Positions 1 to 45,829 of a stretch of DNA of 64,000 nucleotides are shown here, piece after piece. A program made the position numbers and the translations under genes. Each line of letters opens with the position of its first letter. Within the stretch, counting starts at the first letter, position 1. Below the pieces are notes generated by a model. The model was not told the DNA's origin, ran no database searches, and worked only from the letters and a program-made list of their open reading frames with translations. The stretch comes from Bacteroidaceae bacterium. Its GTDB lineage: Bacteria > Bacteroidota > Bacteroidia > Bacteroidales > Bacteroidaceae. The DNA lies in contig JAKSIX010000002.1 in assembly GCA_024398595.1 (NCBI GenBank), positions 1-64,000 on the forward strand. Direction: 5' to 3'.

Positions 1-84
1 ATCGACACGCGCCATTTTTGCTTATAACTAATTTATTAACAATATATTACAAAGAACTAAACAAATTTTCTTTGGACACTAGTG

Positions 85-115
85 TTGTACTTTTTATAAA
101 ATATGACTACCTTTG
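85..115 (+). promoter_or_regulatory. Bacteroidota-type promoter for the aminotransferase-like gene
   Basis: A TTG at 85-87 is followed after 20 nt by TACCTTTG at 108-115, which matches the Bacteroidota -33/-7 pattern (TTG and TAnnTTTG). Transcription would begin near 121, about 22 nt before the ATG at 144. This argues that open reading frame upstream of 144 is not coding and fixes the start of the next gene. Confidence 0.6.
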
Positions 116-143
116 CAGACTATTTGTTCACGGGAAGACAGGT

Positions 144-1184
144 ATGAATTATCTTGATCGAAATGAGTTCAATTTCCAGCCTTCGGATAAGGTGCTGGAG
201 GCTGTTGGAAACTTTGATCCGAAAACTCTTTGCTTTTATACCAGAATATATGACACTGGCAAGAAAAGCGTAGTATCCGTGAGGCTTTCGGAAATATATC
301 ACGTGCCTGAGGAACAGGTACTCCTGGGATATGGCGGTGAGGAAATACTGAAAAACGCAATTCATTATTTCCTTATGGAAGGTGAAAACCGGACAATTCT
401 GATTCCGGAATTTTCCTGGTGGTATTATAAAAATGTGGCAGGTGAGTGCAGCGGCGTTTTTGAGATGTATCCATTGCACGAGACTGGTGACACGTTTGCC
501 TATGACGTGACGGAGGTGATAGAATATGCTAATCGGATACATCCCCGTATGCTGCTTCTGGCTTCGCCAAACAATCCCACAGGCAACAGTCTGACATCAG
601 AGGAAATAGGCCGTATTATGGAGAATATACCATCCGATACGATGGTGCTGGTGGATGAGGCGTATGCAAGTTTCATAACTTCGGATACCGACTACATCGC
701 ACCTCTGGTCAATAAGTACTCAAATCTGATCATCATACGTACTCTGTCGAAGTTCTATGGTCTGCCGGGCCTGAGAGTCGGCTTCGGATTCATCGGTGCC
801 GGTCACGATCAGTTCCTGTCATATTCGAACAAGTATCTTGGCTATAACCGCTTCTCTGAGTCCGTCGCGCTTGCGGCTTTGGAAAGTGACGAGCACTATC
901 GCAAGGTGGCTGACGAGATGGAGTGGGATCGTCAGCTGTTTAAGAAGGAACTGGGCAATCTGCCGGGTTTCAAGGTCTATAAGAGTGTCGCTAATTTTAT
1001 TCTTGTCAAATATCCTGCCGATATAAAGGAAGCTCTGCAGAATGCTCTTGCCGAACAGAATTACAAGATTAAGTTTATGGGCGACAAGGGACTGGAGGAT
1101 TGTCTGCGCATAACGCTTGGGCGTAAGGAGCAGATACAGGTCGTGGTGGATACGATAAAGAGAGTCTATCAAAATAGCATCTGA
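144..1184 (+). CDS. PLP-dependent class I/II aminotransferase-like protein (HisC/CobD-like)
   Basis: A 346-residue fold-type I PLP enzyme resembling histidinol-phosphate aminotransferase and threonine-phosphate decarboxylase (CobD). Visible hallmarks are SPNNPTG at residues 141-147, the PLP-ring Asp in VDEAY (D171), the Schiff-base Lys in LSKFYG (K203) and the following GLRVG with R211. The ATG at 144 is chosen because a promoter lies just upstream and homology starts there. The next gene, 7 nt downstream, encodes a LicC-like nucleotidyltransferase. The same two domains are fused in reverse order at 34050-35864, so the pair probably makes and activates one small molecule, for example an amino-alcohol phosphate. 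A simple HisC role is less likely because the his genes of this window lie elsewhere. Transamination and decarboxylation cannot be told apart by eye. Confidence 0.8.
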   Translation: MNYLDRNEFNFQPSDKVLEAVGNFDPKTLCFYTRIYDTGKKSVVSVRLSEIYHVPEEQVLLGYGGEEILKNAIHYFLMEGENRTILIPEFSWWYYKNVAGECSGVFEMYPLHETGDTFAYDVTEVIEYANRIHPRMLLLASPNNPTGNSLTSEEIGRIMENIPSDTMVLVDEAYASFITSDTDYIAPLVNKYSNLIIIRTLSKFYGLPGLRVGFGFIGAGHDQFLSYSNKYLGYNRFSESVALAALESDEHYRKVADEMEWDRQLFKKELGNLPGFKVYKSVANFILVKYPADIKEALQNALAEQNYKIKFMGDKGLEDCLRITLGRKEQIQVVVDTIKRVYQNSI

Positions 1185-1191
1185 AAGGGAA

Positions 1192-1926
1192 ATGAGGGCA
1201 CTTATTCTGGCTGCGGGTATGGCTTCACGGCTGCGTCCGCTTACTTTGAACACTCCCAAATGCCTCCTTAAGGTAGGAGAACGGACTTTGCTGCAACGTA
1301 GTATCGACGCTTTGACGGCCAATGGCATCTGTGACTTCTGCATTGTCACCGGCTATCTGCATAATATGATAGAGGATTTTGTGCGACGGCAGTATGGAGA
1401 CAGGATAAACGTGACATTTATCCATAACCCCATTTACGACAAGACCAATAACATATATTCTCTATGGCTGGCCCGCGAGTTCGCTGATGGCAAAGAGGTC
1501 CTGTTGCTTGACAGCGACTTGCTGTATGACGGCCGGATTGTGGGACGTGTGCTGGCTGACAAGTCGCAGGATGTGCTTACGCTGATCAGGCATGAACTTG
1601 GCGATGAGGAAATTAAGGTCATCGTTAATGGATCCGGAGACATTCTGGAAATAAGCAAGACCTGCAATCCCGCAGATGCCATAGGAGAGAGTCTTGGCAT
1701 AGAAAAGATGGGCTGTGCCTATACGACAGCCCTTTACAGGGAACTTGAACCGATGATGAATGTGGAACACCTGGAGAATGTATTCTATGAGCGTGCCTTT
1801 GAACGCCTTATTCCTCAGGGACACACATTCAGTGTGCTGGATGTTTCCGATCTGTTCTCCTGCGAGCTTGATACTGTCGAGGACTTCGAGAACGCAAAGA
1901 CCAGGATACCCGCTTCTCTTTATTGA
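1192..1926 (+). CDS. LicC-like phosphocholine/amino-alcohol-phosphate cytidylyltransferase
   Basis: A 244-residue NTP_transferase-family protein. The N-terminal LILAAGMASRL loop (residues 4-14) and K23 in TPKCLL form the nucleotide-binding signature. NPIYDKTNNIYSL (residues 79-91) is characteristic of the LicC-like branch, and DSD at 107-109 is the likely metal site. The family activates phosphocholine, phosphoethanolamine or 2-aminoethylphosphonate with CTP. It shares a promoter with the preceding PLP enzyme. The fusion protein at 34050-35864 carries a near-identical signature at the same residue numbers. No kinase, PEP mutase or transferase partner is visible here, but the window starts just upstream, so the rest of the locus may be cut off. 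The substrate is inferred, not shown. Confidence 0.75.
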   Translation: MRALILAAGMASRLRPLTLNTPKCLLKVGERTLLQRSIDALTANGICDFCIVTGYLHNMIEDFVRRQYGDRINVTFIHNPIYDKTNNIYSLWLAREFADGKEVLLLDSDLLYDGRIVGRVLADKSQDVLTLIRHELGDEEIKVIVNGSGDILEISKTCNPADAIGESLGIEKMGCAYTTALYRELEPMMNVEHLENVFYERAFERLIPQGHTFSVLDVSDLFSCELDTVEDFENAKTRIPASLY

Positions 1927-30403: not shown

Positions 30404-30444
30404 ATCAGTAATTCGGATTTCGTGGCGAAACCCGAATTACTGAT
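30404..30444. terminator. Bidirectional stem-loop between lepA and the acyl-CoA ligase
   Basis: Arms 30404-30416 and 30432-30444 pair perfectly over 13 bp. After one A-C mismatch, TTTCG (30418-30422) pairs with CGAAA (30426-30430) around a TGG loop. The stem overlaps the minus-strand ligase stop codon (30437-30439) and starts 2 nt after the lepA stop. The arm resembles those at 13293-13359 with paired base changes. Confidence 0.65.
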
Positions 30445-32140
30445 AAAGGAAACGCTTGATGCTGCCTTTCGGTGTCTTCTCGAAACTTTCCTCCATCAGC
30501 TGGAACGAGTGAACCCTCTCGTAGGCCGGGAGCGATTCGTTCATTTCCTTGCGGGAAGCGTCAAGGCGTTGCTCAATCTGCTGTCGGCTGAGGCTTCCTG
30601 TCCTTGCAGCTTCCGGATCGGCAACTATGAGACCGATGAGTTTGCCGTCACGTTCAACCACCAGCGATTCGGCTACCAACGGTAACTTGTTGATGATGGT
30701 CTCAATCTCTTCCGGGTAAATGTTCTGTCCTGAGGAACCGAGAATCATGTTTTTGCTGCGGCCCTTTATCGTGATGAAACCGTGCTTGTCCATAAGACCC
30801 ATATCACCGGTGTAGAACCATCCGTCATCATCTATGGCCTGTGCCGTAGCTTCCGGATTCTTGTAGTATCCGAGCATTACATTATCTCCTTTTATTGTAA
30901 TCTCGCCCGGTGTGTTCTCCGGGTCTGAACTGTGAATCTCAACTGTCACTCCGTCTATAGGCTGGCCGCAGGTGCCTGGCTTGAAAGTGTTCCAGTGTGT
31001 GTATGATATGAGAGGTGCGCATTCTGTAGCACCGTATCCTACTGAATAAGGGAAATTGATTGTCCTAAGGCAGTTCTCAACTTCTTTGCTGAGTGCTGCG
31101 CCTCCGATAATCAGCTCTACCATTTTACCGCCGAATATGTCAATGAGCTTGTTTCGTATACCTCTCAGTATAATCTGTCTTAAAATAGGAATCCTAAGGG
31201 CTATCTTCATTGAAGGCTTATCCATAATCGGCATCAGGCCATTGTTTACAACCTTTTCGATAACCAGAGGCACAGTGATGATAAGTGTAGGCTTGAATTC
31301 CCTGAAAGTCTGGAATATTATTTTCGGACTTGGAATCTTGGTCAGGAAATGTATGTGACAGCCTAATGTGAAATCATAGATGAACTCAAACATCAGCCCG
31401 AACATATGGGCCAGCGGAAGCATGCATACGGTATCGCTGCCGGGTTTGAGCGGCATTTTGTTGAGACTGTATATCAACAGCATACGCAATGCCCGGTACG
31501 GTATCATTACACCCTTGGGAAAACTCGTGGTTCCTGAGGTGTAGTTCAGAATGGCAAGGTCATTCCTGTCTTTCTCCTTGAAGAATGCAACATCGTTTTT
31601 GCCGAATCCGTTCGGGAATCTCTGGCTGAAAATCTCATCCAATTTCCCGTATGTGTCGGTCAGCTTTCTGTTCTGCGACTGAATCAGTTCCAAACCGGAT
31701 ATATTGAAATATCCTTCAATTGCCGGCATCTTGTCTGTGTCAATGCTCTTCCACTGTGATTCGCCTACGTACAGTAATCTTGCTTCAGAGTGGTTCACTA
31801 TATTGTGAATGTAGTCTGACTTGAAGTCGGCGAGTATCGGCACAGGTACCGCACCGTATGAGAGAATCGAGAGGAATGCGATTGCCCAGTTGGCGCAGTT
31901 CTTTCCACACAATGCGGCTTTGTCGCCCGGTTTCAGTCCGATGCTTCTGTACAGGATGTGCGCACGTTCAATTTTTTCCGCAATATCCTTATAGAGGTAT
32001 GTTTCACCCTGATAGTCCGACAATGCCTTCAGATTCCAGTTCTTGGTGATGCTTTCCTGAAAGAAAGCTATTGTGCTAGGGTTGTTCAGGTTTATGATGC
32101 TGCTGACATCCAATACGTTTTTGAAAACATTACTACTCAT
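30437..32140 (-). CDS. AMP-dependent long-chain acyl-CoA ligase (paralogue 1)
   Basis: A 567-residue ANL-superfamily adenylating enzyme. NYTSGTTSFPKGVM is the ATP loop, GYGATECAPLIS is the A5 motif, YTGDMG the A7 region, and the C-terminal KTPKGSIKRFLYQ carries the catalytic Lys. It would activate a fatty or other acid with ATP and CoA (or ACP). The ATG at 32140 is chosen because similarity to the paralogue begins there; an upstream in-frame ATG gives 37 extra residues without homology. A TAnnTTTG-like box (TACTTTTG) lies at 32169-32176. The paralogue at 44168-45829 has the same orientation, and the two flank the glycan island. Confidence 0.85.
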   Translation of the reverse strand: MSSNVFKNVLDVSSIINLNNPSTIAFFQESITKNWNLKALSDYQGETYLYKDIAEKIERAHILYRSIGLKPGDKAALCGKNCANWAIAFLSILSYGAVPVPILADFKSDYIHNIVNHSEARLLYVGESQWKSIDTDKMPAIEGYFNISGLELIQSQNRKLTDTYGKLDEIFSQRFPNGFGKNDVAFFKEKDRNDLAILNYTSGTTSFPKGVMIPYRALRMLLIYSLNKMPLKPGSDTVCMLPLAHMFGLMFEFIYDFTLGCHIHFLTKIPSPKIIFQTFREFKPTLIITVPLVIEKVVNNGLMPIMDKPSMKIALRIPILRQIILRGIRNKLIDIFGGKMVELIIGGAALSKEVENCLRTINFPYSVGYGATECAPLISYTHWNTFKPGTCGQPIDGVTVEIHSSDPENTPGEITIKGDNVMLGYYKNPEATAQAIDDDGWFYTGDMGLMDKHGFITIKGRSKNMILGSSGQNIYPEEIETIINKLPLVAESLVVERDGKLIGLIVADPEAARTGSLSRQQIEQRLDASRKEMNESLPAYERVHSFQLMEESFEKTPKGSIKRFLYQ

Positions 32141-32203
32141 AGACTGCCATACTTTTTCAAAAGTTGTCAAAAGTAATGATTTATTCCGTATTTCTGAGAA
32201 TTT

Positions 32204-32381
32204 GTTTTGAAATGTTCGATTAAGAACCTGTTTTGAAATGATTAACTTCAATTCTTATGCTTCTTTTCCGCATCTTTTCTACCGCTTTCCGGTTACAATG
32301 GAGCCACATTGCTCCCTCAAATCAGCAGAAAATCTGCTGGAAAATAACCTATAATAATTTTCGTCAACCATTTCAAAACAG
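32204..32381. repeat. Repeat-rich gap at the left edge of the glycan island
   Basis: TGTTTTGAAATG occurs twice in direct orientation (32204-32215 and 32229-32240) and once inverted (32369-32380). The second and third copies extend to a 13-bp inverted pair (32228-32240 with 32369-32381). Between them lies a perfect 7-bp hairpin (CAGCAGA/TCTGCTG, 32323-32339). The complete gap, 32141-32517, has no gene or tRNA that I can recognise. It may be a remnant of a small mobile or recombinogenic element. Confidence 0.5.
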
Positions 32382-32517: not shown

Positions 32518-34062
32518 ATGGTTGGGATTGATCAGAAACGGATAGCCAAGAACACGCTGATGCTGTATATCAGGATGGGCGTGGTTATGATGGTCAATCT
32601 TTATGCGTCACGAGTCATTCTGGCAGCTTTGGGTAAGGTCGATTTCGGCATATATGGCGCTGTCGGAAGCATAGTGCAGATGTGTTCGTTTTTGTCCGTT
32701 ACAATGTCAACGGCGTGTCAGAGATTCTATTCCTTTGAGATTGGACGTGGCAATTTTGACAGACTCAGACGCTGTTTCAGTCAGACAATAATAGTTTTCA
32801 TTGTCATCGCGCTGATTGTTGTTCTGCTCTCCGAAAGTGCAGGAATGTGGTTTCTTGAAAATAAAATGCAGTTGGCAGGCCGCACGTATGCGGCTCATTA
32901 TGTCTTTCAGCTCTCAATCGTAAGTTTCATTTTCCAGATAATGCGGATTCCATATATGGGTATGGTAATTGCAAAGGAGAAAATGAAGGTTTTTGCGTAT
33001 ATCAGTGTGTTTGAGGCTTTAGGCTCATTGACTATATCGCTTTTGCTGAAGTATTCACATCACGACAGACTGATTCTTTATGCATGGTTGATGCTTACGG
33101 TTCAGATAATGACAACGCTTGCGTTTTATCTATATTGCAGGATTTTCTATGTTGAATGCCGGGTGTCATTAAAATATGACAGAGCAATGTTCAGACAGGT
33201 CTTTTCGTTTACAGGATGGGAAATGATAGGCTCGTTGGCAGGAGTTTGCAAGACGTACGGTGTTAATCTCCTGTTGTTGAATCCTTTTTTCGGACCTGTG
33301 ATTAATGCGGCACGTGATGTCGCCAACAAGGTGTATAGCACAATACTTCAGCTGCAGACGAATTTCTTTATGGCTGTTAAACCACAACTGATCAAATCAT
33401 ACGCAGATGGAAAGGTGGACGATATGATTGCTCTTATGTGCCAGAGCCTTAGGCTTACATATTATTTGCTGTTGGTTGTAGCCATACCTATCCTTGTGGA
33501 GACTCCTATGATTCTTGACATTTGGCTGGAAGATGTTCCGGAATATGCTCCATTGTTTGCCAGACTGCTTATCGTGAATGGGCTGATTGACACTTTCTCT
33601 AATCCATTGGCATCGGCAATACAGGCAACAGGCAGGAACAAGTGGTATCAGATTTGTATGGGCTCTACTTTACTTGCCATTGTCCCGATAGGGTATGCAG
33701 GGTTTAAATGGTTAGACTGGAATGCGGAAGCTGTATTCTATGTTTCTATAGTTTTGTCAGTAGCTGCACAGTGTGTAAGGGTGTATTTTGTGAGGAAACA
33801 GATAGAACTTGATGTCAGAATGTTTATGCGCCAAGTTGTATATGTCATTCTATTGGTGACATCTGTATGTGTGGCACTGCCACTGCTCGTGAAATGGCTT
33901 TTTGAAATGTCGGATGACCTTTTATCTGCGATTATAGTAATGGCAGTCAGCATGATGTGGACAGCAATAGTTGTGTATTTCATAGGTATTACGGGAAGTG
34001 AGCGTAAGTATGTCAATGGGTTTGTAAAAAAATATATTGGTTTTGTGATATGCAGGCGATAA
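32518..34062 (+). CDS. Wzx-like lipid-linked oligosaccharide flippase (MOP superfamily)
   Basis: A 514-residue polytopic protein with about twelve to fourteen hydrophobic helices and few charged loops, in the polysaccharide-export/MATE-like group. The start MVGIDQKRIAKNTLMLYIRMG and the following ASRVILAALGKVDFGIYGAVG region resemble Bacteroidota O-unit flippases. It would move a lipid-linked glycan or repeat unit to the periplasmic face. It opens the island and overlaps the LicC-PLP fusion gene by 13 nt, so translation is coupled. No Wzy polymerase or chain-length regulator is nearby, so the product may be a short glycan. Confidence 0.82.
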   Translation: MVGIDQKRIAKNTLMLYIRMGVVMMVNLYASRVILAALGKVDFGIYGAVGSIVQMCSFLSVTMSTACQRFYSFEIGRGNFDRLRRCFSQTIIVFIVIALIVVLLSESAGMWFLENKMQLAGRTYAAHYVFQLSIVSFIFQIMRIPYMGMVIAKEKMKVFAYISVFEALGSLTISLLLKYSHHDRLILYAWLMLTVQIMTTLAFYLYCRIFYVECRVSLKYDRAMFRQVFSFTGWEMIGSLAGVCKTYGVNLLLLNPFFGPVINAARDVANKVYSTILQLQTNFFMAVKPQLIKSYADGKVDDMIALMCQSLRLTYYLLLVVAIPILVETPMILDIWLEDVPEYAPLFARLLIVNGLIDTFSNPLASAIQATGRNKWYQICMGSTLLAIVPIGYAGFKWLDWNAEAVFYVSIVLSVAAQCVRVYFVRKQIELDVRMFMRQVVYVILLVTSVCVALPLLVKWLFEMSDDLLSAIIVMAVSMMWTAIVVYFIGITGSERKYVNGFVKKYIGFVICRR

Positions 34063-35864
34063 TTCTGGCGGCAGGAATGGGTAAGCGTCTTGGAGAGCTT
34101 ACAAAATCTAACACAAAGTGTATGATTGAAGTCAACGGTGTGCCGCTGATAGATAGAATGCTTGTGAATCTGACGGGTCTCGGACTATCCCGTGTAGTTA
34201 TAGTTGTCGGATATGAAGGTGAGAGACTTATGGATTACATAGGTCACCGTTACGATGAAAACTTGAAAATTGAGTATGTTGTCAATCCGATATTCGATCG
34301 CACTAACAATATATATTCACTGGCTCTGGCAAAGAAACAGCTACAGGAGGATGATACTCTGCTGTTGGAGAGTGATTTGATTTTTGAACAGCGTATGCTA
34401 AATCTGCTGTTGGATAATAAATATCCGAATCTGGCGCTGGTGGCCAAGTATGAGACTTGGATGGATGGCACTATGGTACGTATTGATGACGATAACAGAA
34501 TAGTCAGTTTCGTTCCGAAAAAGGCATTCAAATACTCGGATGTTCCATATTATTACAAAACCTGCAATATATATAAGTTCAGCAGAGAATTCTGTGCAAA
34601 TCAGTATGTGCCATTTCTTGAGGCGTACAGCAGGGCAATGGGTAATAATGAGTACTATGAGCAGGTGTTGCGTGTGCTGACTGTTTTGGACAAATCTGAA
34701 CTGATGGCTCTTCCGATAACTGATGAAAAGTGGTATGAGATTGATGATGTTCAGGATAAGGATATAGCTGAGACGATATTTTCCTCTGCTGATGCCCGCT
34801 TGATCAAACTGTCCCATTGCTATGGTGGATATTGGCGATTCCCAGAGTTGAAGGATTTCTGTTATTTGGTCAATCCTTATTTCCCTCCTGCCAGGATGAA
34901 GGATGAAATATGTGCAAATTTCAATTCATTACTTACACAGTATCCATCGGGAATGGCTGTCAATTCGCTGCTTGGTGGAAAATATTTTGGAATACGGCAG
35001 AATTATGTATGTGTCGGCAATGGAGCTGCAGAACTGATAAAATGTCTGATGGAGAATCATGCATATGGGAAGACTGGTGTTGTGTTCCCAACTTTTGAGG
35101 AGTATCCGAACAGATTGGCTTCGAAGGATATAGTCAGATATATACCGGATAACCGTGATTTTTCATATACATCAGATGATTTGAAGAATTATTTTGCAGA
35201 CAAGAATTTGTCCAATCTCCTGCTTGTCAATCCGGATAATCCGTCTGGTAATTTTATTTCAAAAGATGATGTTCTGTCATTGTTAAGATGGTGCAGTGAG
35301 AGAAACATTTTTCTTATCGTGGATGAGAGTTTTGTTGATTTTACAGAAAATCATAAGGACAATACTTTGCTGCGAAACGATATTCTTTCAGGTAATGCAA
35401 ATCTCGCGGTTGTGAAATCCATAAGTAAATCGTACGGTGTTCCGGGGTTGCGCCTGGGCATTGTCGCATCATCCGACAGCGCGCTGATTGATGCAATGCG
35501 TAAGGAGGTCGCCATTTGGAATATCAATTCATTTGCGGAGTTTTACATGCAGGTATTCAACAAGTATGAAAAGGATTATTATGCTGCATGTGATAAATTT
35601 ATAGAGGAAAGAGCAATGTTCTATAGAGAACTTTGCGATGTTCCATATTTGAGAGTCATACCATCATCGGCAAATTATTTTCTCTGTGAGGTGACGTCGC
35701 GCTATTCATCGCATGAACTGACGGAACTGCTTTTGAGGGAACATAATGTACTTATTAAGGACTGTGGAACTAAAAGTGCATTTTCAGACAGACAGTTCGT
35801 TCGAATTGCTGTGAGGGATAGAAATGACAATCATATGCTTGCCGAGATATTGAAGGGGATATGA
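34050..35864 (+). CDS. Fusion: LicC-like cytidylyltransferase + PLP-dependent aminotransferase/decarboxylase-like domain
   Basis: A 604-residue two-domain protein. Residues 1-240: NTP_transferase domain with ILAAGMGKRL (5-14), K23 and the LicC-type NPIFDRTNNIYSL (79-91). Residues about 255-604: fold-type I PLP domain with NPDNPSG (394-400), D425 in VDESF and the Schiff-base Lys in SISKSYG (K460), then GLRLG. The fusion suggests channelling: the PLP domain makes an amino-alcohol phosphate or related molecule (for instance by CobD-like decarboxylation of a phospho-amino acid), and the first domain adds CMP. A LicD transferase two genes on could then use it. The substrate is inferred. The separate genes at 144-1926 are the same pair in opposite order. 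The stop overlaps the next start by 4 nt. Confidence 0.85.
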   Translation: MQAIILAAGMGKRLGELTKSNTKCMIEVNGVPLIDRMLVNLTGLGLSRVVIVVGYEGERLMDYIGHRYDENLKIEYVVNPIFDRTNNIYSLALAKKQLQEDDTLLLESDLIFEQRMLNLLLDNKYPNLALVAKYETWMDGTMVRIDDDNRIVSFVPKKAFKYSDVPYYYKTCNIYKFSREFCANQYVPFLEAYSRAMGNNEYYEQVLRVLTVLDKSELMALPITDEKWYEIDDVQDKDIAETIFSSADARLIKLSHCYGGYWRFPELKDFCYLVNPYFPPARMKDEICANFNSLLTQYPSGMAVNSLLGGKYFGIRQNYVCVGNGAAELIKCLMENHAYGKTGVVFPTFEEYPNRLASKDIVRYIPDNRDFSYTSDDLKNYFADKNLSNLLLVNPDNPSGNFISKDDVLSLLRWCSERNIFLIVDESFVDFTENHKDNTLLRNDILSGNANLAVVKSISKSYGVPGLRLGIVASSDSALIDAMRKEVAIWNINSFAEFYMQVFNKYEKDYYAACDKFIEERAMFYRELCDVPYLRVIPSSANYFLCEVTSRYSSHELTELLLREHNVLIKDCGTKSAFSDRQFVRIAVRDRNDNHMLAEILKGI

Positions 35865-36952
35865 AGAAAAAGACTGAGATTTGTATCTGTGGTGGGGGAA
35901 ATCTGGCTCATGTGACTGGTGGATACCTTGCGTCTAAGGATGAGTATTCGGTACGTTTGCTTACGCGTCATCCAGAAAAATGGTGCGTGGATGGCAGACC
36001 ATTGATTGTTGAAGATCCTGACGGCAATAGATTCAGAGGTAATTTTTCTTTGGTTACACCTGATGCGCAGACTGCATTGGATGGCGCGGAAATTGTCCTT
36101 TTGTGTGTTCCTGGATTTGCAATAGCAGATGAATTGAAAAAAATCAGGGAATACGTCACGTCTGATATGTATATCGGCTCAATTGTGTCCAGTACAGGAT
36201 TTTTTTTGATGGCTGATGAACTCCTGGGACTTGATACCCGCTTGTTCGGTCTGCAGAGAGTGCCTTTTATTGCCAGGGTTGACGAGTATGGCTCAAAAGC
36301 GATGTTGCTTGGGTACAAACCTTCAATAACAATTGCAACTTTGCATATTTCGGAACGGGAGTATTTGGTATCAACATTAACTGCGATGTTTGATGTCCCT
36401 GTTGTATTACTTGATAATTATATGAAGGTAACGTTGTCAAATAGTAACCCGATATTGCATCCTTCCAGATTATATGGTATGTTTGGAAGTTGCAGGGAGA
36501 CGTACGATTCGGAAATTATGTTTTATGAAGATTGGGATGTAAGAAGTTCGGAAATTTTGATTGAGTGTGACCGGGAATTTAGAAAAGTTGCTGAATCATA
36601 TGATGTGGGTGAAAATGATATACCTTCGCTTTTGACATATTATGAGAGTAGTGATGCGGTTTCATTGACAAAAAAAATACATTCTATTTCAGCATTCAAG
36701 GGACTTAGGGCTCCTATGATTAGGCTGGAATCTCAAAAGTATGTTCCTGATTATGAAAACCGTTACTTTACGGAGGATATCCCGTTTGGTATGCTGATGG
36801 TCAGGGCTTTTGCTGAACGGCAGGGAATTACTACGGAGATGATTGATACTGTTATAAGCTGGGCTCAGAATGTCATGAACAGGGAATATTTGCGCGATGG
36901 AATTCTAAATGGATGTGATTTGGTAGATACTATTGTTCCATATGTCCTATGA
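35861..36952 (+). CDS. Opine dehydrogenase-family protein (octopine/nopaline dehydrogenase type)
   Basis: A 363-residue NAD(P)-dependent enzyme. A Rossmann N-terminus with CGGGNLAH (residues 10-17) is followed from about residue 180 by the all-helical octopine-dehydrogenase domain, including NPILHPSRLYG (196-206) whose H200 matches the family's catalytic His. Family members reductively couple a 2-keto acid with the amine of an amino acid. In several Gram-negative O-antigens such opines (alanopine, N-(1-carboxyethyl)-lysine) decorate sugars. Its place inside a glycan operon, with 4-nt overlaps to both neighbours, points to that kind of role. An alternative is a polyol/keto-acid reductase in the same precursor pathway. 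Confidence 0.75.
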   Translation: MKKKTEICICGGGNLAHVTGGYLASKDEYSVRLLTRHPEKWCVDGRPLIVEDPDGNRFRGNFSLVTPDAQTALDGAEIVLLCVPGFAIADELKKIREYVTSDMYIGSIVSSTGFFLMADELLGLDTRLFGLQRVPFIARVDEYGSKAMLLGYKPSITIATLHISEREYLVSTLTAMFDVPVVLLDNYMKVTLSNSNPILHPSRLYGMFGSCRETYDSEIMFYEDWDVRSSEILIECDREFRKVAESYDVGENDIPSLLTYYESSDAVSLTKKIHSISAFKGLRAPMIRLESQKYVPDYENRYFTEDIPFGMLMVRAFAERQGITTEMIDTVISWAQNVMNREYLRDGILNGCDLVDTIVPYVL

Positions 36953-37770
36953 TTGACGAATCAATACAGAAACAGCTGCGCGAACAGTATAATCCGGACG
37001 GATCGATGTTACGTGAGATACAGATGTACCTTCTTGATATTTTGTCAGAGGTTGACCGTGTCTGCCGGGAGAATGGCCTTACATATTGGCTTGATTCAGG
37101 AACATTGTTGGGCGCGGTACGGCACGGTGGGTTTATTCCGTGGGATGATGACATAGATATATGTATCCTAAGGAAAGACTACAAACGCTTCTGTAAGGTT
37201 ATGCGTGAATGTCTGCGTCCTCCGTACAAGTTATATGCTATAGACTATGACTCGGACTACAATCACAAGTGGCCGCGTATAGTGAACGAAAATATATCAG
37301 TGAAGCGTATGGCGCCTGATGGGGCAGTCAGGGAGGAGAAACTTTGGGTTGATGCTTTTTTAATGTGCAATGGACATCCGTCATACGTGAGGAAAATAGA
37401 TGCATTGTATGGGCGTTGTTTTCGTCGGGTTCATGGAATTGTGGATGATGGTTGGTTGCGCAGGGTCGCAGGATTTGTGGCATTTCCGTTTGCAACATTG
37501 CTTGTGATGTTTTCGCGTTTGTATGGTAAGACGTTCTACCGCGATACGCTCGTGCATGATTATGCGTCGGGATTTTATAGTATTCGTAAGGTAGATGATA
37601 TATTCCCATTGTCGTCTATATCGTTTGAGGGTAGGTACTTTATATCTCCTGGTAATCCTGAAGCATATCTGAAAAGGGTGTTCGGAAATTACGAAGAACT
37701 TCCTTCAGAGGATAGTAGATTGACTCATAATATGATGGAAGTTAATTTGCTTAATTGTCAAAATAAATGA
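36949..37770 (+). CDS. LicD-family phosphotransferase
   Basis: A 273-residue protein with the LicD nucleotidyltransferase-fold signature at residues 46-71: YWLDSGTLLGAVRHGG followed by FIPWDDDIDI, including the metal-binding DDDID. A hydrophobic patch (about 165-185) may be a membrane contact. LicD proteins transfer phosphocholine, phosphoethanolamine or similar groups from CDP-activated donors to glycans. The donor would come from the LicC-PLP fusion two genes upstream. Both ends overlap neighbours by 4 nt. The region is more A+T-rich than the housekeeping genes around the island, in keeping with horizontal origin. Confidence 0.88.
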   Translation: MIDESIQKQLREQYNPDGSMLREIQMYLLDILSEVDRVCRENGLTYWLDSGTLLGAVRHGGFIPWDDDIDICILRKDYKRFCKVMRECLRPPYKLYAIDYDSDYNHKWPRIVNENISVKRMAPDGAVREEKLWVDAFLMCNGHPSYVRKIDALYGRCFRRVHGIVDDGWLRRVAGFVAFPFATLLVMFSRLYGKTFYRDTLVHDYASGFYSIRKVDDIFPLSSISFEGRYFISPGNPEAYLKRVFGNYEELPSEDSRLTHNMMEVNLLNCQNK

Positions 37771-38375
37771 ACGCAGGTGTGATTTTGGCAGGAGACGTTG
37801 GATCACGCTCTGGTTTGAACACTCCAAAGCAGTTCTATAAGGTGGCAGGCAAGACTGTACTGGAACATACTGTTGATGTGTTTGAACGTCACGGGGGAAT
37901 TGATGAGATTGCAGTAGTGGTCAATTCATCTCTTGTGCGCGAAGTGGAGAGTATAATCCTGCGTAACAAATGGACCAAACTGAAGAAGGTGCTGATTGGA
38001 GGCAAGGAAAGATACTACAATCAGGAGCAGGCGGTGATGGAGATTATGAAATATGTTGACGGAAGGAATAGAAATGCTATGGTCAGAAGCCGCTATCAGT
38101 CCTGTGCCTATATGTCTTTGAAGCTTGGAATATACGGGAAGAATGAATATAGGAACAAGTTCCATTTGCTGCGGACGGTGGACATCTTGTCGAACGATTG
38201 TCAGACAAAACATGCGAATCTGGTGGTCTGGTGTTCCTTTCATTTCAGTTATAGGCTGGCTGTCTTTGGAGCGAAGGCGATAAACAAATACCAGGTGCTG
38301 AAAAACAAATTGATAGAAATTTGGAATTTGCTTCGTGCTGTAATATCTTTAAAGCGTTTTAACTATTCAAGATAA
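37767..38375 (+). CDS. IspD/TarI-like cytidylyltransferase N-terminus joined to an unrelated C-terminus
   Basis: A 202-residue reading frame. Residues 1-100 match the N-terminal half of IspD/TarI/Bcs1-type cytidylyltransferases: VILAGDVGSR (G10 replaced by D), PKQF (20-23) and GGKERYYN (78-85). The second half should contain the HDAVRP active-site strand and the CTP/dimer elements, but none is visible. Instead residues 101-202 form a basic, probably helical stretch (from about 38067). The frame is open throughout, so this looks like an in-frame deletion or fusion and not a frameshift. It probably has no cytidylyltransferase activity alone. It overlaps licD by 4 nt and precedes the SDR-TagD gene by 1 nt, and could be a decaying copy of an Acs1/Bcs1-like gene. 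Confidence 0.55.
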   Translation: MNAGVILAGDVGSRSGLNTPKQFYKVAGKTVLEHTVDVFERHGGIDEIAVVVNSSLVREVESIILRNKWTKLKKVLIGGKERYYNQEQAVMEIMKYVDGRNRNAMVRSRYQSCAYMSLKLGIYGKNEYRNKFHLLRTVDILSNDCQTKHANLVVWCSFHFSYRLAVFGAKAINKYQVLKNKLIEIWNLLRAVISLKRFNYSR

Positions 38376-38376
38376 A

Positions 38377-39564
38377 ATGGGTGCTGCTGAACATAAATAT
38401 AATAAGGCGTTGGTGATAGGTGGAAGTAACGGCATCGGTCTGAGCATTGTGCTGAATCTTGCTGCAATGTGCCGGAACATCGTTATTATGGACAAGGTGG
38501 CTCCGGATTGTGAACTGCCGGACAATGTCTCTTATTATCATTATAACCTTTTGAATGACTGTTTTGAGGATAATGCCGATACTGCCGGTGTGGGACAGGC
38601 TGACATGGATATTCTCGTTGTTACGGCAGGCTTTGGACGTATTGCTCCATTTGAGACATTCGTGGATAAGGAAATTGACAATGTGTTTGGCGTGAATGCT
38701 GTGGCTCTGACAAAAGTTATCAGATATTATTATCCGCGAATGTTGCATGGCGACAGTTTCTTCTGTGCTGTGATGGGTAGCATTGCGGGACTTGTTGCAT
38801 CTCCAATGATAAGTCTGTACAGTGCTACGAAGGCTGCCGTATGTAAATTGACCGAAGGGATAAATGCGGAATTGGAATCTGCAGGATCGTTAAATCGTGT
38901 GCTGAATGTATCTCCCGGCTCGATTAAAGGGACAAAGTTTAACGGTGCATCGGAGAATAATCTGAAATTGACGGAAGGACTTGCGGCTGAGATAATTGAA
39001 AGGATGCTTGCACGTGAGCTCTTGTATATTCCTGACTACGATAATGTGTATAAGGGCGTGCTGGAACGTTATCATACAGACCCGCATAAATTTGCATCGG
39101 ACAGTTGCCGCTACAAGATTGGGAGCGGAAGAATGAATTGTAATCCTCAGTTGAGGGTGGGGTATCTTAGCGGGACATTTGATCTCTTTCATATAGGTCA
39201 TCTGAATTTGCTGCGCAGGGCTAAGGAATGTTGTGATTATTTGGTTGTCGGTGTCCATAAGGATGCGTCACATAAAGGGAAGGAAACTTTTATCCCGTAC
39301 GAGGAGCGTTGTGACATACTCCGTAATATCAAGTATGTTGATAAGGTTATTCAGAGTCTGCCGGAGGATGATGAGATATACAGACAAGGTATTGTGAAAT
39401 ATGACTGCCTGTTTGTAGGCAGTGACTACAAGGGAACCGAGCGTTTCAACCGCTACGAGGCCTATTTTGCCGACAAGAACGTGAGAATAATATACTTCCC
39501 ATATACCCAAGGCACAAGCAGTACGCGACTTCGTAATGCTCTGGATGCGATATCAGAGAAATAA
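38377..39564 (+). CDS. Fusion: short-chain dehydrogenase + TagD-like glycerol-3-phosphate cytidylyltransferase
   Basis: A 395-residue two-domain protein. Residues 1-250: SDR with GGSNGIG (15-21), Ser in GSIAG (134-138) and YSATK (148-152). Residues 257-395: TagD-type cytidylyltransferase with GTFDLFHIGH (HIGH 272-275) and TSSTRLR (380-386). TagD makes CDP-glycerol from glycerol-3-phosphate and CTP. The known Acs1/Bcs1 enzymes fuse an IspD-like cytidylyltransferase to an SDR to make CDP-ribitol; here a different cytidylyltransferase family is attached on the other side of the SDR. The likely product is a CDP-polyol made from a phosphorylated keto-sugar. The TagF-like transferase starts 1 nt after the stop and is the natural user. 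Confidence 0.85.
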   Translation: MGAAEHKYNKALVIGGSNGIGLSIVLNLAAMCRNIVIMDKVAPDCELPDNVSYYHYNLLNDCFEDNADTAGVGQADMDILVVTAGFGRIAPFETFVDKEIDNVFGVNAVALTKVIRYYYPRMLHGDSFFCAVMGSIAGLVASPMISLYSATKAAVCKLTEGINAELESAGSLNRVLNVSPGSIKGTKFNGASENNLKLTEGLAAEIIERMLARELLYIPDYDNVYKGVLERYHTDPHKFASDSCRYKIGSGRMNCNPQLRVGYLSGTFDLFHIGHLNLLRRAKECCDYLVVGVHKDASHKGKETFIPYEERCDILRNIKYVDKVIQSLPEDDEIYRQGIVKYDCLFVGSDYKGTERFNRYEAYFADKNVRIIYFPYTQGTSSTRLRNALDAISEK

Positions 39565-39565
39565 T

Positions 39566-40762
39566 ATGAAATTCCTGGCATATCTGATTTGCTATTTTAT
39601 TTATCCGTTCTCGTTCCTGTTTCCACGGGACAGCCGGAAATATGCCTTTGGCAGTTTCCGTGGAGCGTTTAACGACAATGCGAAACATTTATTCATATAT
39701 GCGTCGCAGCATTGTTCCGATGCCCGTTGCGTATGGCTCTCGCCGGACAGGAAAACTGTGGCTCTTGTGCGCCGTCTGGGCTTCGAAAGCTATTATGTAC
39801 TTTCTCCAAGAGGGGCGTGGTATGCATTGACAGCCAGATACTGGTTTGTAAATTCCTATTCCAATGATATTTTCTTCAGTTTCTCCGGTGGTGCTGTAAT
39901 CATTAATCTGTGGCACGGACTTACGATAAAACGTATAGAATTTGGAATAACCACCGGTGATTTGGCTGACAGATATGTGAAAAAAACATTGAAAGAACGG
40001 TTCTATCATCCTCAGGTGTATATCCGACCGGATTATGTGCTGTCATCCTCACACTTTCAATCTGAGATATTTGCCAAGGATTTCAGGATTGATATATCAC
40101 GTTGCTTGGAGTTCGGCTATCCGCGCAATTACCTGTTGGGACGCTCTTTTCAGGAGAGAATGGATTTCGCCTCCAAGTTTGAACCGGAGCAGGCGCGTGA
40201 GGTTCTGAATATGTTGCGTAATTATTCCAGAAGTTACATCTATATGCCTACGTGGCGTGACTCGCAACGTGAGGTTTTTGTGCAGAGTCTGGATCTGAAT
40301 GCGTTGAACGGGATACTTGCTGACAGGAACGAACTGATGCTTCTCAAACCCCATGCTAATACAATTGTAGATAATGTTGAGTCTCTGTCAAATATCAGAC
40401 TTTTGGACAACAGACTGGATATTTACTCCATTATACCTGACATTGATGTGCTTATATCAGATTATTCCTCTATTATTCAGGATTTCCTGCTTATGAGTGG
40501 CAAAGGGCTGATATTGTATCTGTATGATTATAAAGACTATGCCACCGGACGTGATTTCGAGATTGACTATGAGGCAATAATGCCGGGAGTCAGGGCTTAC
40601 GATTTCGGAATGCTGCGGCAAGCCATTCAAAATGACTGTATAGTTCCAGAGGAGGAACGCAGGCGTTTCATTGGGCTGTTCTGGGGCAATAGCTTGAATA
40701 TCAATTCTTCTGACGAGATAATAGGCTTTGTGCACTCTTTGGATAGAAAAATTTACAAATAG
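39566..40762 (+). CDS. CDP-glycerol/polyol-phosphate transferase (TagB/TagF family)
   Basis: A 398-residue protein of the CDP-glycerol:glycerophosphotransferase family. Hallmarks are INLWHG (LWHG 115-118), YMPTWR (226-231), KPHAN (261-265) and ISDYSSIIQDF (297-307). The N-terminus holds a hydrophobic segment (about 1-20) that may sit on the inner membrane. Members add glycerol-phosphate or ribitol-phosphate units from CDP donors, building teichoic-acid-like chains or single modifications. Here the donor is presumably made by the SDR-TagD fusion immediately upstream. An ATG 30 nt earlier lies inside the upstream gene, so 39566 is chosen. Primase- or polymerase-like activity cannot be separated by eye. 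Confidence 0.88.
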   Translation: MKFLAYLICYFIYPFSFLFPRDSRKYAFGSFRGAFNDNAKHLFIYASQHCSDARCVWLSPDRKTVALVRRLGFESYYVLSPRGAWYALTARYWFVNSYSNDIFFSFSGGAVIINLWHGLTIKRIEFGITTGDLADRYVKKTLKERFYHPQVYIRPDYVLSSSHFQSEIFAKDFRIDISRCLEFGYPRNYLLGRSFQERMDFASKFEPEQAREVLNMLRNYSRSYIYMPTWRDSQREVFVQSLDLNALNGILADRNELMLLKPHANTIVDNVESLSNIRLLDNRLDIYSIIPDIDVLISDYSSIIQDFLLMSGKGLILYLYDYKDYATGRDFEIDYEAIMPGVRAYDFGMLRQAIQNDCIVPEEERRRFIGLFWGNSLNINSSDEIIGFVHSLDRKIYK

Positions 40763-40787
40763 CTGTTTCCTATACGAAGGATTGGGG

Positions 40788-40830
40788 AACTTGAATAATA
40801 GCAATTCGGTAACTTACGAAACCTAAATAA
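40788..40830 (+). repeat. Degenerate copy of the CGAAAC-type repeat before the GT2 gene
   Basis: AACTTGAATAAT at 40788-40799 repeats the end of the inverted repeat at 13344-13359, and the next segment (40801-40828) aligns with 13331-13358 at roughly three quarters of positions (shared CAATT, AACTT, CGAAAC, AATAA). The fold itself is decayed. It fills the only sizeable gap in the island. Confidence 0.35.
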
Positions 40831-41730
40831 ATGATATCGGTTATTATCTGTACATATAATAGGGACAAGTATATATATAATGTATTACGCAGTCTTGCAG
40901 AGGGATCTTATCCTCGCGACAAATATGAGATTGTAGTTGTTGACAACAACTGTACCGATAATACGCAGGAAGAGCTGGAGCGGTTTGCCGCAGATTACCC
41001 CGATGTCGCTATAAAAACGGTGACGGAGTTTGAACAGGGTTTGTCACACGCACGAAACCGCGGAATACTTGAGTCCGGCGGTGATATACTGGTGTATGTT
41101 GATGATGATGCGACAGTGAATAAGGAATACCTGTCGGTATATGATGAATTCTTCTTGCGTAATGCTGGAATTGAGGCGGCGGGTGGACCTGTAATACCTT
41201 ACTATGAGGATGGGACTGAGCCGGAGTGGATGACCTATCATCTGAGAAGGCTGCTTACGGGGTATCTGTACTTCGGCGACAAGGAACGTGATTTCCCCGG
41301 GGACAATTATCCGGGTGGAGGCAATGCCGCCTATAGAAAAAAAGTATTCGATACCGTAGGCTTGTACAATGTTGAGTTAGGTCGAAAAGGAGACAGTCTG
41401 GCAGGTGGCGAGGAAAAGGACATCTTCAATAAGATGACATCTGCCGGAATGCGCTTCCGGTATTTGCCTGGGGCAATTCTGTATCATAGTATTCCACATT
41501 ATAAATTGGAACGGGACTATTTTGACCGTGTAACGTGCGGAATAGGTGAGAGCGAACGCAAACGCACTCTGAGAATATCCAGAACTGCATATCTTAAGCG
41601 TCTCGTCAAAGAAGGAGTGAAATGGTGCGGCACATTGGTACTTTGGATTATATACCTGTTCCGTGGACGTGTGAGGTGCGGCAACATGCTGGTAAGATTC
41701 CGCTGGAATGTAACGAGAAAGTTACTTTGA
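40831..41730 (+). CDS. Family 2 glycosyltransferase
   Basis: A 299-residue GT-A fold enzyme. The start MISVIICTYNRDKYI, the EIVVVDNNCTDNT segment and the metal-binding triple Asp (residues 91-93 in VYVDDDATV) are typical of GT2. A C-terminal hydrophobic stretch (about residues 266-277) suggests inner-membrane association. It transfers a sugar from a nucleotide donor to the growing glycan; the sugar is unknown. It lies 68 nt after the TagF-like gene, the only sizeable gap in the island. Its 3' end overlaps the convergent YfhO gene by 9 nt. Confidence 0.87.
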   Translation: MISVIICTYNRDKYIYNVLRSLAEGSYPRDKYEIVVVDNNCTDNTQEELERFAADYPDVAIKTVTEFEQGLSHARNRGILESGGDILVYVDDDATVNKEYLSVYDEFFLRNAGIEAAGGPVIPYYEDGTEPEWMTYHLRRLLTGYLYFGDKERDFPGDNYPGGGNAAYRKKVFDTVGLYNVELGRKGDSLAGGEEKDIFNKMTSAGMRFRYLPGAILYHSIPHYKLERDYFDRVTCGIGESERKRTLRISRTAYLKRLVKEGVKWCGTLVLWIIYLFRGRVRCGNMLVRFRWNVTRKLL

Positions 41731-44167: not shown

Positions 44168-45829
44168 TTATTCTTTTTGGTAGAGGAAACGCTTGATGCT
44201 CTTTTTGGGTGTCTTCTCGAATTCCTCGTTGTATATTCTTATCTGTGAAATCTGCTCGTATGCAGGCAGCTCCCTGTTGAGCTCGCTGCGGTTGCTTTCC
44301 ATCGTAGCCGGTATCTGTTCTTCCTTAAGACCGAGGTTCATTGCCTCGTCGAAGTCCGGATATACAAGTGCTACAAGCTTGCCGTTCTCGCTTATGACGA
44401 CAGATTCGGACACGCAAGGCATATTGTTGAGCTTGTCCTCTATCTCCTCAGGATATATGTTCTGTCCTGAAGGCCCGAGTATCATACTCTTGCTGCGTCC
44501 TTTGATGAATACGTTGCCGTCCCTGTCCATTATGCCGAGGTCGCCTGTGTACATCCAACCGTCTGCGTCTATTGTCTCTTCTGTAAGTTTTTCGTTCTTG
44601 TAATATCCCAGCATTACGTTCGGCCCCCGGCAGACAATCTCGCCCGGTATATGTTCGGGATCGCTGCTCAATATTTTGACTTCCATTCCGTATGCGGCCT
44701 TTCCGCAGGAGCCGGGTACGAAAGTCTTCCAGTCCTCGTAGCATATTATCGGGCCGCATTCGGTGGCTCCGTAGCCTACAGTGTATGGGAAATGTACCGA
44801 GTGAAGGAAATTCTCCACTTCCTGATTGAATGCCGCTCCGCCTATGATTATCTGGTAGAACTCCCCTCCGAACGAGTTGATCAGCTCCTTGCGGATTTTT
44901 CTGTTTATCTGGTCATTTACCACGGGCACCTTCAGCAGAAGCCTCATCTGCGTGGTCTCAAGTCTTGGAAGTACATTCTTCTTGATGATTTTTTCGATGA
45001 CTAGCGGTACGGCTATTATGACTTTGGGCTTTATGTCGTGGAACGCCTGGAAAATTACCTTCGGGCTCGGCAGACGTGTGAGGAAATAAACGTGACACCC
45101 GATTGTAATCTCGTAGATGAATTCGTAGGCGAAACTGTACATATGTGCCATAGGCAACATTGAAATCACCTGATCGCCGGCCTTGAGGGTGGACATGACT
45201 CTTCTTGCAAATTCCCTGTTGTTCTCAAGTGAACGGTACGGAAGCATTACGCCCTTGGAGAAACCCGTTGAGCCGGATGTGTAATTGATCATTGCCAGAC
45301 TGTCCGACGGCGGTATGGCATAGCATACATTGGATGGCGTGAAGTCCTTCGGGTACTTCTTCCCGAACAGCTCGTTCAGATGCTCGCGGGCTTCCGTCAG
45401 GTCTTCACTGCGCGATATTGCAAGCGAGAAATCGTCAATGATAATGATTCCGGTCAGTTCCGGCATCATGGATTCATTCAGGTTCTCCCATATATGGTCG
45501 CCTGCGAACAGAAGCTTCGCATCGGAGTGGTTGACTATGTTGTGAATGTTGTTTGGCTTGAACTCGTGCAGGATGGGGACTATTACAGTTCCGTAGGACA
45601 TCGCGGCCAGACACGCCGATGCCCAGTTGGCGCAGTTCCTGCCGCACAATGCAATCTTGTCTCCGGGCTTGATGCCGGCAGCCTGAAACAGGATGTGCAG
45701 TTTTGCTATCCTCCTTGCAATGTCGCGATACAGCAGTGTCGTTCCTTTGTAGTCGGTAAGTGCCTCAAGATCCCAATTCTTCCTGATGCTGTCCTGAATG
45801 CAGGAAATAAGTGATGTGCCGGAGTCCAT
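44168..45829 (-). CDS. AMP-dependent long-chain acyl-CoA ligase (paralogue 2)
   Basis: A 553-residue ANL-family ligase paralogous to the gene at 30437-32140. Shared features are NYTSGSTGFSKGVMLPY, GYGATECGPIICY, YTGDLGIMDRDG and the C-terminal KTPKKSIKRFLYQKE with the catalytic Lys. The two proteins are similar from end to end, and the DNA at their 3' ends is visibly related. It lies 3 nt after yggS and 4 nt before yfhO. It would activate a fatty acid for lipid synthesis or recycling. A dedicated role with the flanked island or the ACP cluster is possible but not shown. Confidence 0.86.
   Translation of the reverse strand: MDSGTSLISCIQDSIRKNWDLEALTDYKGTTLLYRDIARRIAKLHILFQAAGIKPGDKIALCGRNCANWASACLAAMSYGTVIVPILHEFKPNNIHNIVNHSDAKLLFAGDHIWENLNESMMPELTGIIIIDDFSLAISRSEDLTEAREHLNELFGKKYPKDFTPSNVCYAIPPSDSLAMINYTSGSTGFSKGVMLPYRSLENNREFARRVMSTLKAGDQVISMLPMAHMYSFAYEFIYEITIGCHVYFLTRLPSPKVIFQAFHDIKPKVIIAVPLVIEKIIKKNVLPRLETTQMRLLLKVPVVNDQINRKIRKELINSFGGEFYQIIIGGAAFNQEVENFLHSVHFPYTVGYGATECGPIICYEDWKTFVPGSCGKAAYGMEVKILSSDPEHIPGEIVCRGPNVMLGYYKNEKLTEETIDADGWMYTGDLGIMDRDGNVFIKGRSKSMILGPSGQNIYPEEIEDKLNNMPCVSESVVISENGKLVALVYPDFDEAMNLGLKEEQIPATMESNRSELNRELPAYEQISQIRIYNEEFEKTPKKSIKRFLYQKE

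Follow-up and report, generated by a model that had tools for sequence, protein, structure and literature searches.

Here we describe an island of eight consecutive open reading frames (ORFs), all on the + strand at positions 32518–41730 of a 64,000-nucleotide stretch of DNA from a Bacteroidaceae bacterium of rumen or gut type (GenBank assembly GCA_024398595.1, contig JAKSIX010000002.1; the whole stretch is referred to here as the window). At its centre are three genes, encoding a fusion of a LicC-type cytidylyltransferase to a CobD-type pyridoxal phosphate (PLP) enzyme (LicC-CobD), an opine dehydrogenase (ODH) and a LicD phosphotransferase. LicC-CobD, LicD and either ODH or OCD, a protein of the OCD_Mu_crystall family that occupies its place in other genomes, very probably act in one pathway; the strongest evidence is their linkage, their fusions and the exchange of ODH and OCD within one gene slot. 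We regard it as an even call whether this is a Bacteroidales tailoring pathway in which ODH or OCD reductively N-carboxyalkylates a phosphoserine-derived cytidine diphosphate (CDP)-amino alcohol, yielding an 'opine phosphate' on surface glycans. The island as a whole is best explained, with confidence slightly above even, by the two-arm synthesis of a short exported glycan that carries two phosphodiester groups. As far as we found, the arm that contains ODH is widespread in Bacteroidales and undescribed in the open-access literature, in which we found no description of a link between ODH and LicD or of ODH in Bacteroides capsules.

Conservation of the LicC-CobD module

We queried a GTDB-based collection with an alignment of 22 LicC-CobD proteins and obtained at least 559 confirmed relatives, which define candidate loci. 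The 98 distinct loci studied here comprise the best 80 of these at least 559 together with loci from a search of 150 relatives; a few are near-identical (L062, L105 and L106). Neighbours were counted by tblastn, with a partner required within 150 bp of LicC-CobD and LicD on the same strand within 200 bp. By this count, the neighbour of LicC-CobD is ODH at 57 loci, OCD at 27, LicD at 9 and none of these at 5, and LicD lies within 3 kb of LicC-CobD at 73 of the 98 loci. ODH and OCD never share the neighbour slot (0 of 98 loci; L097 has both in series), and at least 18 changes between the two states are needed on a FastTree phylogeny of LicC-CobD. The two are unrelated families, each able to reduce C=N bonds, and their exchange in a single slot is best explained by a common reaction in which an amine and a keto acid form an imine that is then reduced. 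One such OCD gene, at L051 in a genome of the same genus (G016), stands directly behind LicC-CobD in the place of ODH.

Gene fusions link the same proteins. Three loci encode LicC-CobD-ODH fusions of 943–946 aa with LicD adjoining (L104, L114 and L121), six encode ODH-LicD fusions (L062 in G050, L105, L106, L116, L145 and L148) and one an ODH-LicD-glycosyltransferase fusion (L142); two-gene operons made up solely of LicC-CobD and ODH-LicD also exist. ODH is otherwise uncommon in the 150 relatives, with 30 copies in 27 genomes, and it is adjacent to LicC-CobD in 16 of the 23 genomes that have the latter. The presence of ODH or OCD beside LicC-CobD at 84 of the 98 loci, together with fusions in several lineages, places ODH in the amino-alcohol pathway. 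On this comparative evidence we regard it as a pathway member and no accessory, a point that the first-pass annotation of this DNA missed. The module is found by itself next to housekeeping genes in several genomes of the Prevotella type, and thus it need not be part of a capsule locus. At a further locus (L101, 8412–9941), an IspD-LicD fusion of 509 aa lies directly upstream of LicC-CobD.

The named relatives are Bacteroidales, many of them metagenome-assembled genomes from rumen or gut; one homologue of LicC-CobD (at L094) is from Bacteroides cellulosilyticus. A sample of 296 genomes from the phylum added one more distant member (G292), with LicD directly after LicC-CobD. Full-length homologues also occur in plasmid records of Fusobacterium, Gloeothece, Pseudonocardia, Erwinia, Rahnella and Priestia. 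On the Gloeothece verrucosa plasmid (L215, 4977–8439), LicC-CobD, an S-adenosylmethionine-dependent methyltransferase and LicD lie in a row, a possible route to phosphocholine-type tailoring de novo from phosphoserine; in Erwinia and Rahnella, a CDP-alcohol phosphatidyltransferase comes next after LicC-CobD. Both kinds of partner fit a CDP-amino alcohol with a methylatable or otherwise alkylatable nitrogen. Three viral contigs of 22–122 kb (L208, L209 and L210) encode full-length LicC-CobD fusions, and the LicD-like and methyltransferase-like genes near those of L208 and L209 point to phage-borne amino-alcohol phosphate tailoring. On Priestia megaterium plasmid pBM700 (L219, 139039–152796), a LicC-CobD/FrbH-like fusion is found near genes for a 1-deoxy-D-xylulose-5-phosphate reductoisomerase (DXR), ATP-grasp proteins and an AAC(3)-type protein. 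This arrangement recalls a cluster of the FR-900098/fosmidomycin type with a putative self-resistance copy of DXR; no PEP (phosphoenolpyruvate) mutase is annotated nearby.

Predicted chemistry of the amino-alcohol arm

Domains were assigned to the island proteins by Pfam and NCBIfam profile searches and by profile matches to PDB entries. LicC-CobD (34050–35864, +) has a predicted N-terminal CTP:phospho-amino-alcohol cytidylyltransferase (residues 1–245) and a predicted C-terminal CobD-type PLP decarboxylase (256–604). K23, E107-S-D109 and the PLP lysine K460 are invariant in the 22 homologues. The LicC half carries an LESD motif identical to that of Tde-PntC (6pd1), in which Glu104 contacts a primary amine, whereas choline-specific LicC has an Asp at the amine-contact site. 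Profile matches reached 206 bits for 6oux, 130 for CobD (1lc5), 79 for HisC (1fg3) and 68 for LicC (1jyk), so that 6oux, titled 'threonine phosphate decarboxylase-like enzyme', clearly outscores both Salmonella CobD and HisC for the CobD half. This entry is, we believe, SMUL_1544. SMUL_1544 has been proposed as the source of ethanolamine phosphate for norcobamide (PMC4585668).

A fusion of like domain order, FrbH of the FR-900098 pathway in Streptomyces, cytidylylates and then decarboxylates the amino-acid phosphonate 2-amino-4-phosphonobutyrate (PMC8976061, PMC6697681), the phosphonate isostere of phosphoserine. No match to PEP mutase was found in the source genome, which makes a phosphonate product unlikely. 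Together, the LESD motif, the 6oux match, the FrbH parallel and the lack of PEP mutase make conversion of phosphoserine to CDP-ethanolamine the most economical reading, and the activated group is likely to be ethanolamine. This lends support to the first-pass claim that the island makes its own CDP-amino alcohol independently of choline uptake; neither LicA nor LicB (choline kinase and transporter) is found among the eight island genes.

ODH (35861–36952, +) belongs to the opine (octopine) dehydrogenase family (PF02317, 3.6e-34; 118 bits against a cut-off of 30) and can be aligned over its whole length with octopine dehydrogenase (OcDH; 3c7a/3iqd, E ~9e-43), including the Rossmann N-domain. 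Its H200, R301 and D306, invariant in 63 of 63 homologues, align to OcDH H212, R324 and D329, presumably the catalytic histidine, the keto-acid-binding arginine and the catalytic aspartate. LicD (36949–37770, +; PF04991, 4.5e-34) has an intact WDDDIDI motif and is the sole LicD of the source genome. Its nearest NCBIfam model is the Mf1 cholinephosphotransferase (64 bits), and Mf1, a member of the LicD family, moves phosphoethanolamine off CDP-ethanolamine in vitro (PMC11982090).

In the first arm as we propose it, the LicC half would couple cytidine monophosphate to a small amino compound that carries a phosphate, O-phosphoserine being the most likely one, and the CobD half would decarboxylate it, before or after cytidylylation, to give CDP-ethanolamine. 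ODH would then form an imine from the primary amine and a 2-keto acid (probably pyruvate) and reduce it to CDP-N-(1-carboxyalkyl)ethanolamine, from which LicD would transfer N-carboxyalkyl-ethanolamine phosphate onto a sugar. The domains, intact catalytic residues, linkage, fusions and slot replacement are read directly from the sequences; phosphoserine and pyruvate as substrates and the direction of the ODH reaction are what we infer from them. We consider it rather probable that ODH N-carboxyalkylates the activated amino-alcohol group.

A separate, predicted polyol phosphate arm

The sixth gene (38377–39564, +) encodes a fusion of a short-chain dehydrogenase (SDR; residues 1–240; PF00106, 3e-22) to a cytidylyltransferase with an HxGH motif (258–395; PF01467, 1.3e-17), here SDR-TagD. 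It is predicted from its domains to reduce a keto or aldehyde phosphate and to make a CDP-polyol. Its score against the TagD model TIGR01518 is 79 bits against a cut-off of 165, below equivalog level, and YTQGTSST replaces the RTEGISTT motif of TagD. Full-length SDR-TagD fusions occur in 8 of the 150 relatives. The seventh gene encodes a predicted TagB/TagF-like CDP-polyol phosphotransferase (39566–40762, +, in an ORF that opens at 39536; PF04464, 6e-47), for which orthologues of at least 49% identity are restricted to this genus (17 genomes). The eighth (40831–41730, +; PF00535, 5.6e-27) is a family 2 glycosyltransferase (GT2) and the constant partner of the TagF-like gene, found downstream of it in 17 of the 17 full-length TagF loci examined, wherever the contig reaches.

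Upstream of the TagF and GT2 pair, 18 loci have IspD-SDR (8), SDR-TagD (4), GT2 (4), LicD (1) or a contig break (1). IspD-SDR is the established Bcs1 arrangement for CDP-ribitol. Because SDR-TagD or IspD-SDR precedes the pair at 12 of the 18 loci, the two appear to be alternative CDP-polyol suppliers, and SDR-TagD should make a CDP-polyol other than that of IspD-SDR. The SDR-TagD gene stands beside the same pair in three further members of the genus, and the first-pass proposal of a separate CDP-polyol arm holds in this respect. In this second arm, SDR-TagD would make the CDP-polyol and the TagF-like enzyme would transfer polyol phosphate from it, a role for the TagF-like protein that we hold with good confidence.

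The fifth gene (37767–38375, +), which had been taken for a working IspD-like activation enzyme, is a chimeric relic in which IspD residues ~1–85 are joined to a GT2-like C terminus, and it matches only positions 4–92 of 221 in PF01128. The IspD part (the first ~85–100 residues) shares 60–65% identity with IspD-SDR proteins from the genus, and the half of IspD that holds the HDAVRP stretch conserved in relatives is missing. The last ~110 residues have a weak likeness (26–35%, E ~6e-5) to the C terminus of a GT2 of ~320 aa that sits just upstream of IspD-SDR in relatives. A frameshift in an intact IspD was rejected, as the second half cannot be recovered in any frame and the C terminus resembles a GT2 tail. 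We read the gene as a deletion or recombination scar from an ancestor with an IspD-SDR/GT2 stretch, predicted to be non-functional. It is absent from the sister islands described below (G032, G065 and G004), and its chimeric nature leaves the island with two activation enzymes, not three.

Island architecture and sister islands

The first gene (32518–34062, +; PF01554, 8e-7) encodes a flippase of the MATE/MOP superfamily, a probable Wzx-like exporter of a lipid-linked glycan. GT2 would add a sugar, the MATE-type protein would flip the lipid-linked product and the initiating transferase would be encoded elsewhere in the genome. Which polyol and acceptor are used, and whether ODH meets a nucleotide-bound or a free amine, are likewise matters of inference here. 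Domain searches recognized no initiating transferase or Wzy polymerase among the eight genes, in agreement with the first-pass annotation; the single Bac_transf gene of the genome (~2.2 Mb, 95 contigs, 98% complete) and its Wzy_C-type genes sit on other contigs.

The ORF coordinates bear out the compact layout that had been noted, with six of the seven junctions overlapping or 1 nt apart (in order −13, −4, −4, −4, +1, −29 and +68 nt). Homologues of the TagF-like protein begin at its residue 11, which puts its start probably at 39566 and its junction at +1 instead of −29. Among the domain assignments made earlier, those for MatE, NTP_transferase with Aminotran_1_2 (CobD-like), Octopine_DH, LicD, SDR with CTP_transf_like, Glyphos_transf and GT2 stand, and only the IspD-like one falls.

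The GC content is ~41–43% inside the island and 46–51% in its surroundings. Flanking it on the opposite strand are an acyl-CoA/ACP synthetase gene on one side and a YfhO-like gene on the other. Islands of related composition share a core of MATE, LicC-CobD, (ODH), LicD, SDR-TagD and (TagF, GT2). G032 has six of the eight genes (MATE, LicC-CobD, LicD, SDR-TagD, TagF and GT2) in the corresponding chromosomal position, ahead of YfhO and the synthetase, and G025 has SDR-TagD, TagF and GT2 in that position, at the start of a contig. In another genus of the family, G065 has MATE, LicC-CobD, ODH, LicD and SDR-TagD with nearly identical overlaps, and the order in G004 is LicC-CobD, ODH, MATE, LicD, SDR-TagD, TagF and GT2. 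A flippase orthologue (58–60% identity) heads the islands of G032 and G065. The full eight-gene order, sought in other genomes, was found nowhere else, G032, G065 and G004 being the closest.

Paralogous acyl-CoA/ACP synthetase genes lie on both sides of the island in the window (30437–32251 and 44168–45829, both −); in G032, one copy was found, on the downstream side only. At the start of the window (18–1926, +), an unfused HisC/CobD-like PLP gene adjoins a LicC-like nucleotidyltransferase gene whose best PDB match is LicC, and in a relative (L205) such genes flank a CDP-alcohol phosphatidyltransferase-like gene. The unfused pair suggests a separate pathway for an activated head group or a lipid.

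Alternative explanations

Several observations weigh against an opine phosphate arm paired with a CDP-polyol arm. Ethanolamine has no carboxylate, unlike the α-amino acids on which known opine dehydrogenases act, and ODH may therefore work before decarboxylation or on another amine. ODH is missing from the closest sister island, that of G032, and so is not essential for LicD function. In the second arm, the departure of the TagD motif from RTEGISTT makes CDP-glycerol uncertain. The first two points fit an island that adds plain phosphoethanolamine, with ODH supplying an N-carboxyalkyl amino acid that has nothing to do with it and is attached to the glycan independently, for instance through an amide bond; LicD directly follows LicC-CobD in G032, and opine dehydrogenases are generally known for α-amino acid substrates. 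We think this explanation unlikely, as ODH occurs in fusions with LicC-CobD or LicD in several lineages, takes part in two-gene operons and has been swapped with OCD repeatedly, and the island has no amide-forming ligase. The fusion might instead use phosphothreonine, a possible substrate that also counts against the phosphoserine reading; the island would then add (R)-1-amino-2-propanol phosphate by way of CDP-aminopropanol, with ODH or OCD modifying the amine. The CobD half does fall in the threonine-phosphate decarboxylase family (TIGR01140, 176 bits), but 6oux outscores Salmonella CobD by 206 bits to 130, the module has no threonine kinase, and phosphoserine is a general metabolite as well as isosteric with the FrbH substrate, all of which makes phosphothreonine very unlikely.

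The first-pass annotation had proposed a teichoic-acid-like polymer, built with two CDP-activation fusions and IspD, in which TagF would polymerize glycerol phosphate and LicD would add phosphocholine or phosphoethanolamine. The Glyphos_transf and TagD-like domains (the latter at the 79 bits given above) are in keeping with this, and TagF-like capsule polymerases exist in Gram-negative bacteria (PMC8262930). Against it, the IspD-like gene is a truncated chimera, nothing specific to a polymer was found in the island, and the TagF-like protein scores far under the equivalog cut-offs (TarF, 91 bits against 550; TarL, 45 against 1,000; TarB, 41 against 500), with a length of ~398 aa that fits single transfer of the TarB/TarF type. 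We doubt that this protein polymerizes polyol phosphate, and we consider the polymer as proposed quite improbable; as a label, 'teichoic-acid-like' does not hold for the whole island, in which TagF is the only member of that superfamily, and fits only the second arm. Tailoring with a phosphonate (2-aminoethylphosphonate, AEP) activated as by PntC would agree with the cytidylyltransferase family, with the LESD motif shared with Tde-PntC and with PEP mutase domains near the module in some relatives. This route was rejected and merits hardly any weight: PEP mutase is missing from a 98% complete genome, only 4 of the 23 genomes with LicC-CobD fusions have a full-length match, and the PLP half of LicC-CobD is of the CobD type, unlike the partner domain in Tde1415, a class V AEP transaminase. 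In three relatives (G009:C81, G012:C18 and G027:C1; loci L085, L086 and L059), full-length PEP mutase domains occur in long ORFs near LicC-CobD/ODH, and in G012 and G027 a LicC-like domain shares the frame with the PEP mutase domain. Phosphonate and phosphate head groups may thus coexist in one locus.

Implications and comparison with known systems

The immune system recognizes phosphocholine and phosphoethanolamine when bacterial glycans carry them, and lic, the best-known route, scavenges choline. If the N-carboxyalkylation reading is right, the module builds its head group from central metabolism, converts it to an opine and alters its charge. Given how common the module is in gut and rumen Bacteroidales, this predicts an unrecognized class of surface epitope. 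Opine dehydrogenases, familiar for octopine and for the opines of crown gall, would also gain a role in nucleotide-activated glycan building.

FrbH resembles LicC-CobD in its N-terminal cytidylyltransferase and C-terminal PLP decarboxylase, a likeness of domain order and predicted activity. It differs in serving an antibiotic pathway with a phosphonate substrate, whereas the island has ODH/OCD and LicD as partners, a glycan setting and no PEP mutase. PntC-AEPT of Treponema denticola (Tde1415) also joins a LicC-type cytidylyltransferase, with an identical LESD motif, to a PLP domain, but of another class and with a phosphonate substrate. The lic phosphocholine pathway (LicA/B/C/D; Mf1 in Mycoplasma) shares CDP activation followed by LicD transfer; in contrast, the island lacks choline uptake and kinase genes, and its head group is predicted to be made de novo and modified by ODH/OCD. 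Octopine dehydrogenase of Pecten maximus (3C7A) is homologous to ODH over its full length, with the three catalytic residues conserved, but acts on free arginine, whereas the island ODH is linked or fused to a CDP-amino-alcohol pathway and its amine is presumably no α-amino acid. Bcs1 and TarI-TarJ (IspD-SDR, CDP-ribitol) have their counterpart before the same TagF and GT2 pair at eight loci of the genus, whereas the island has SDR-TagD and a mere IspD fragment. TarF/TagF share the Glyphos_transf domain with the island protein, which differs in scoring below the equivalog cut-off, in its outer-membrane host and in that a polymer is only hypothetical here. Finally, we point to the O-antigen of Proteus mirabilis O14 (no open-access account was found), which carries 2-[(R)-1-carboxyethylamino]ethyl phosphate, the very product expected if ODH acts on ethanolamine phosphate.

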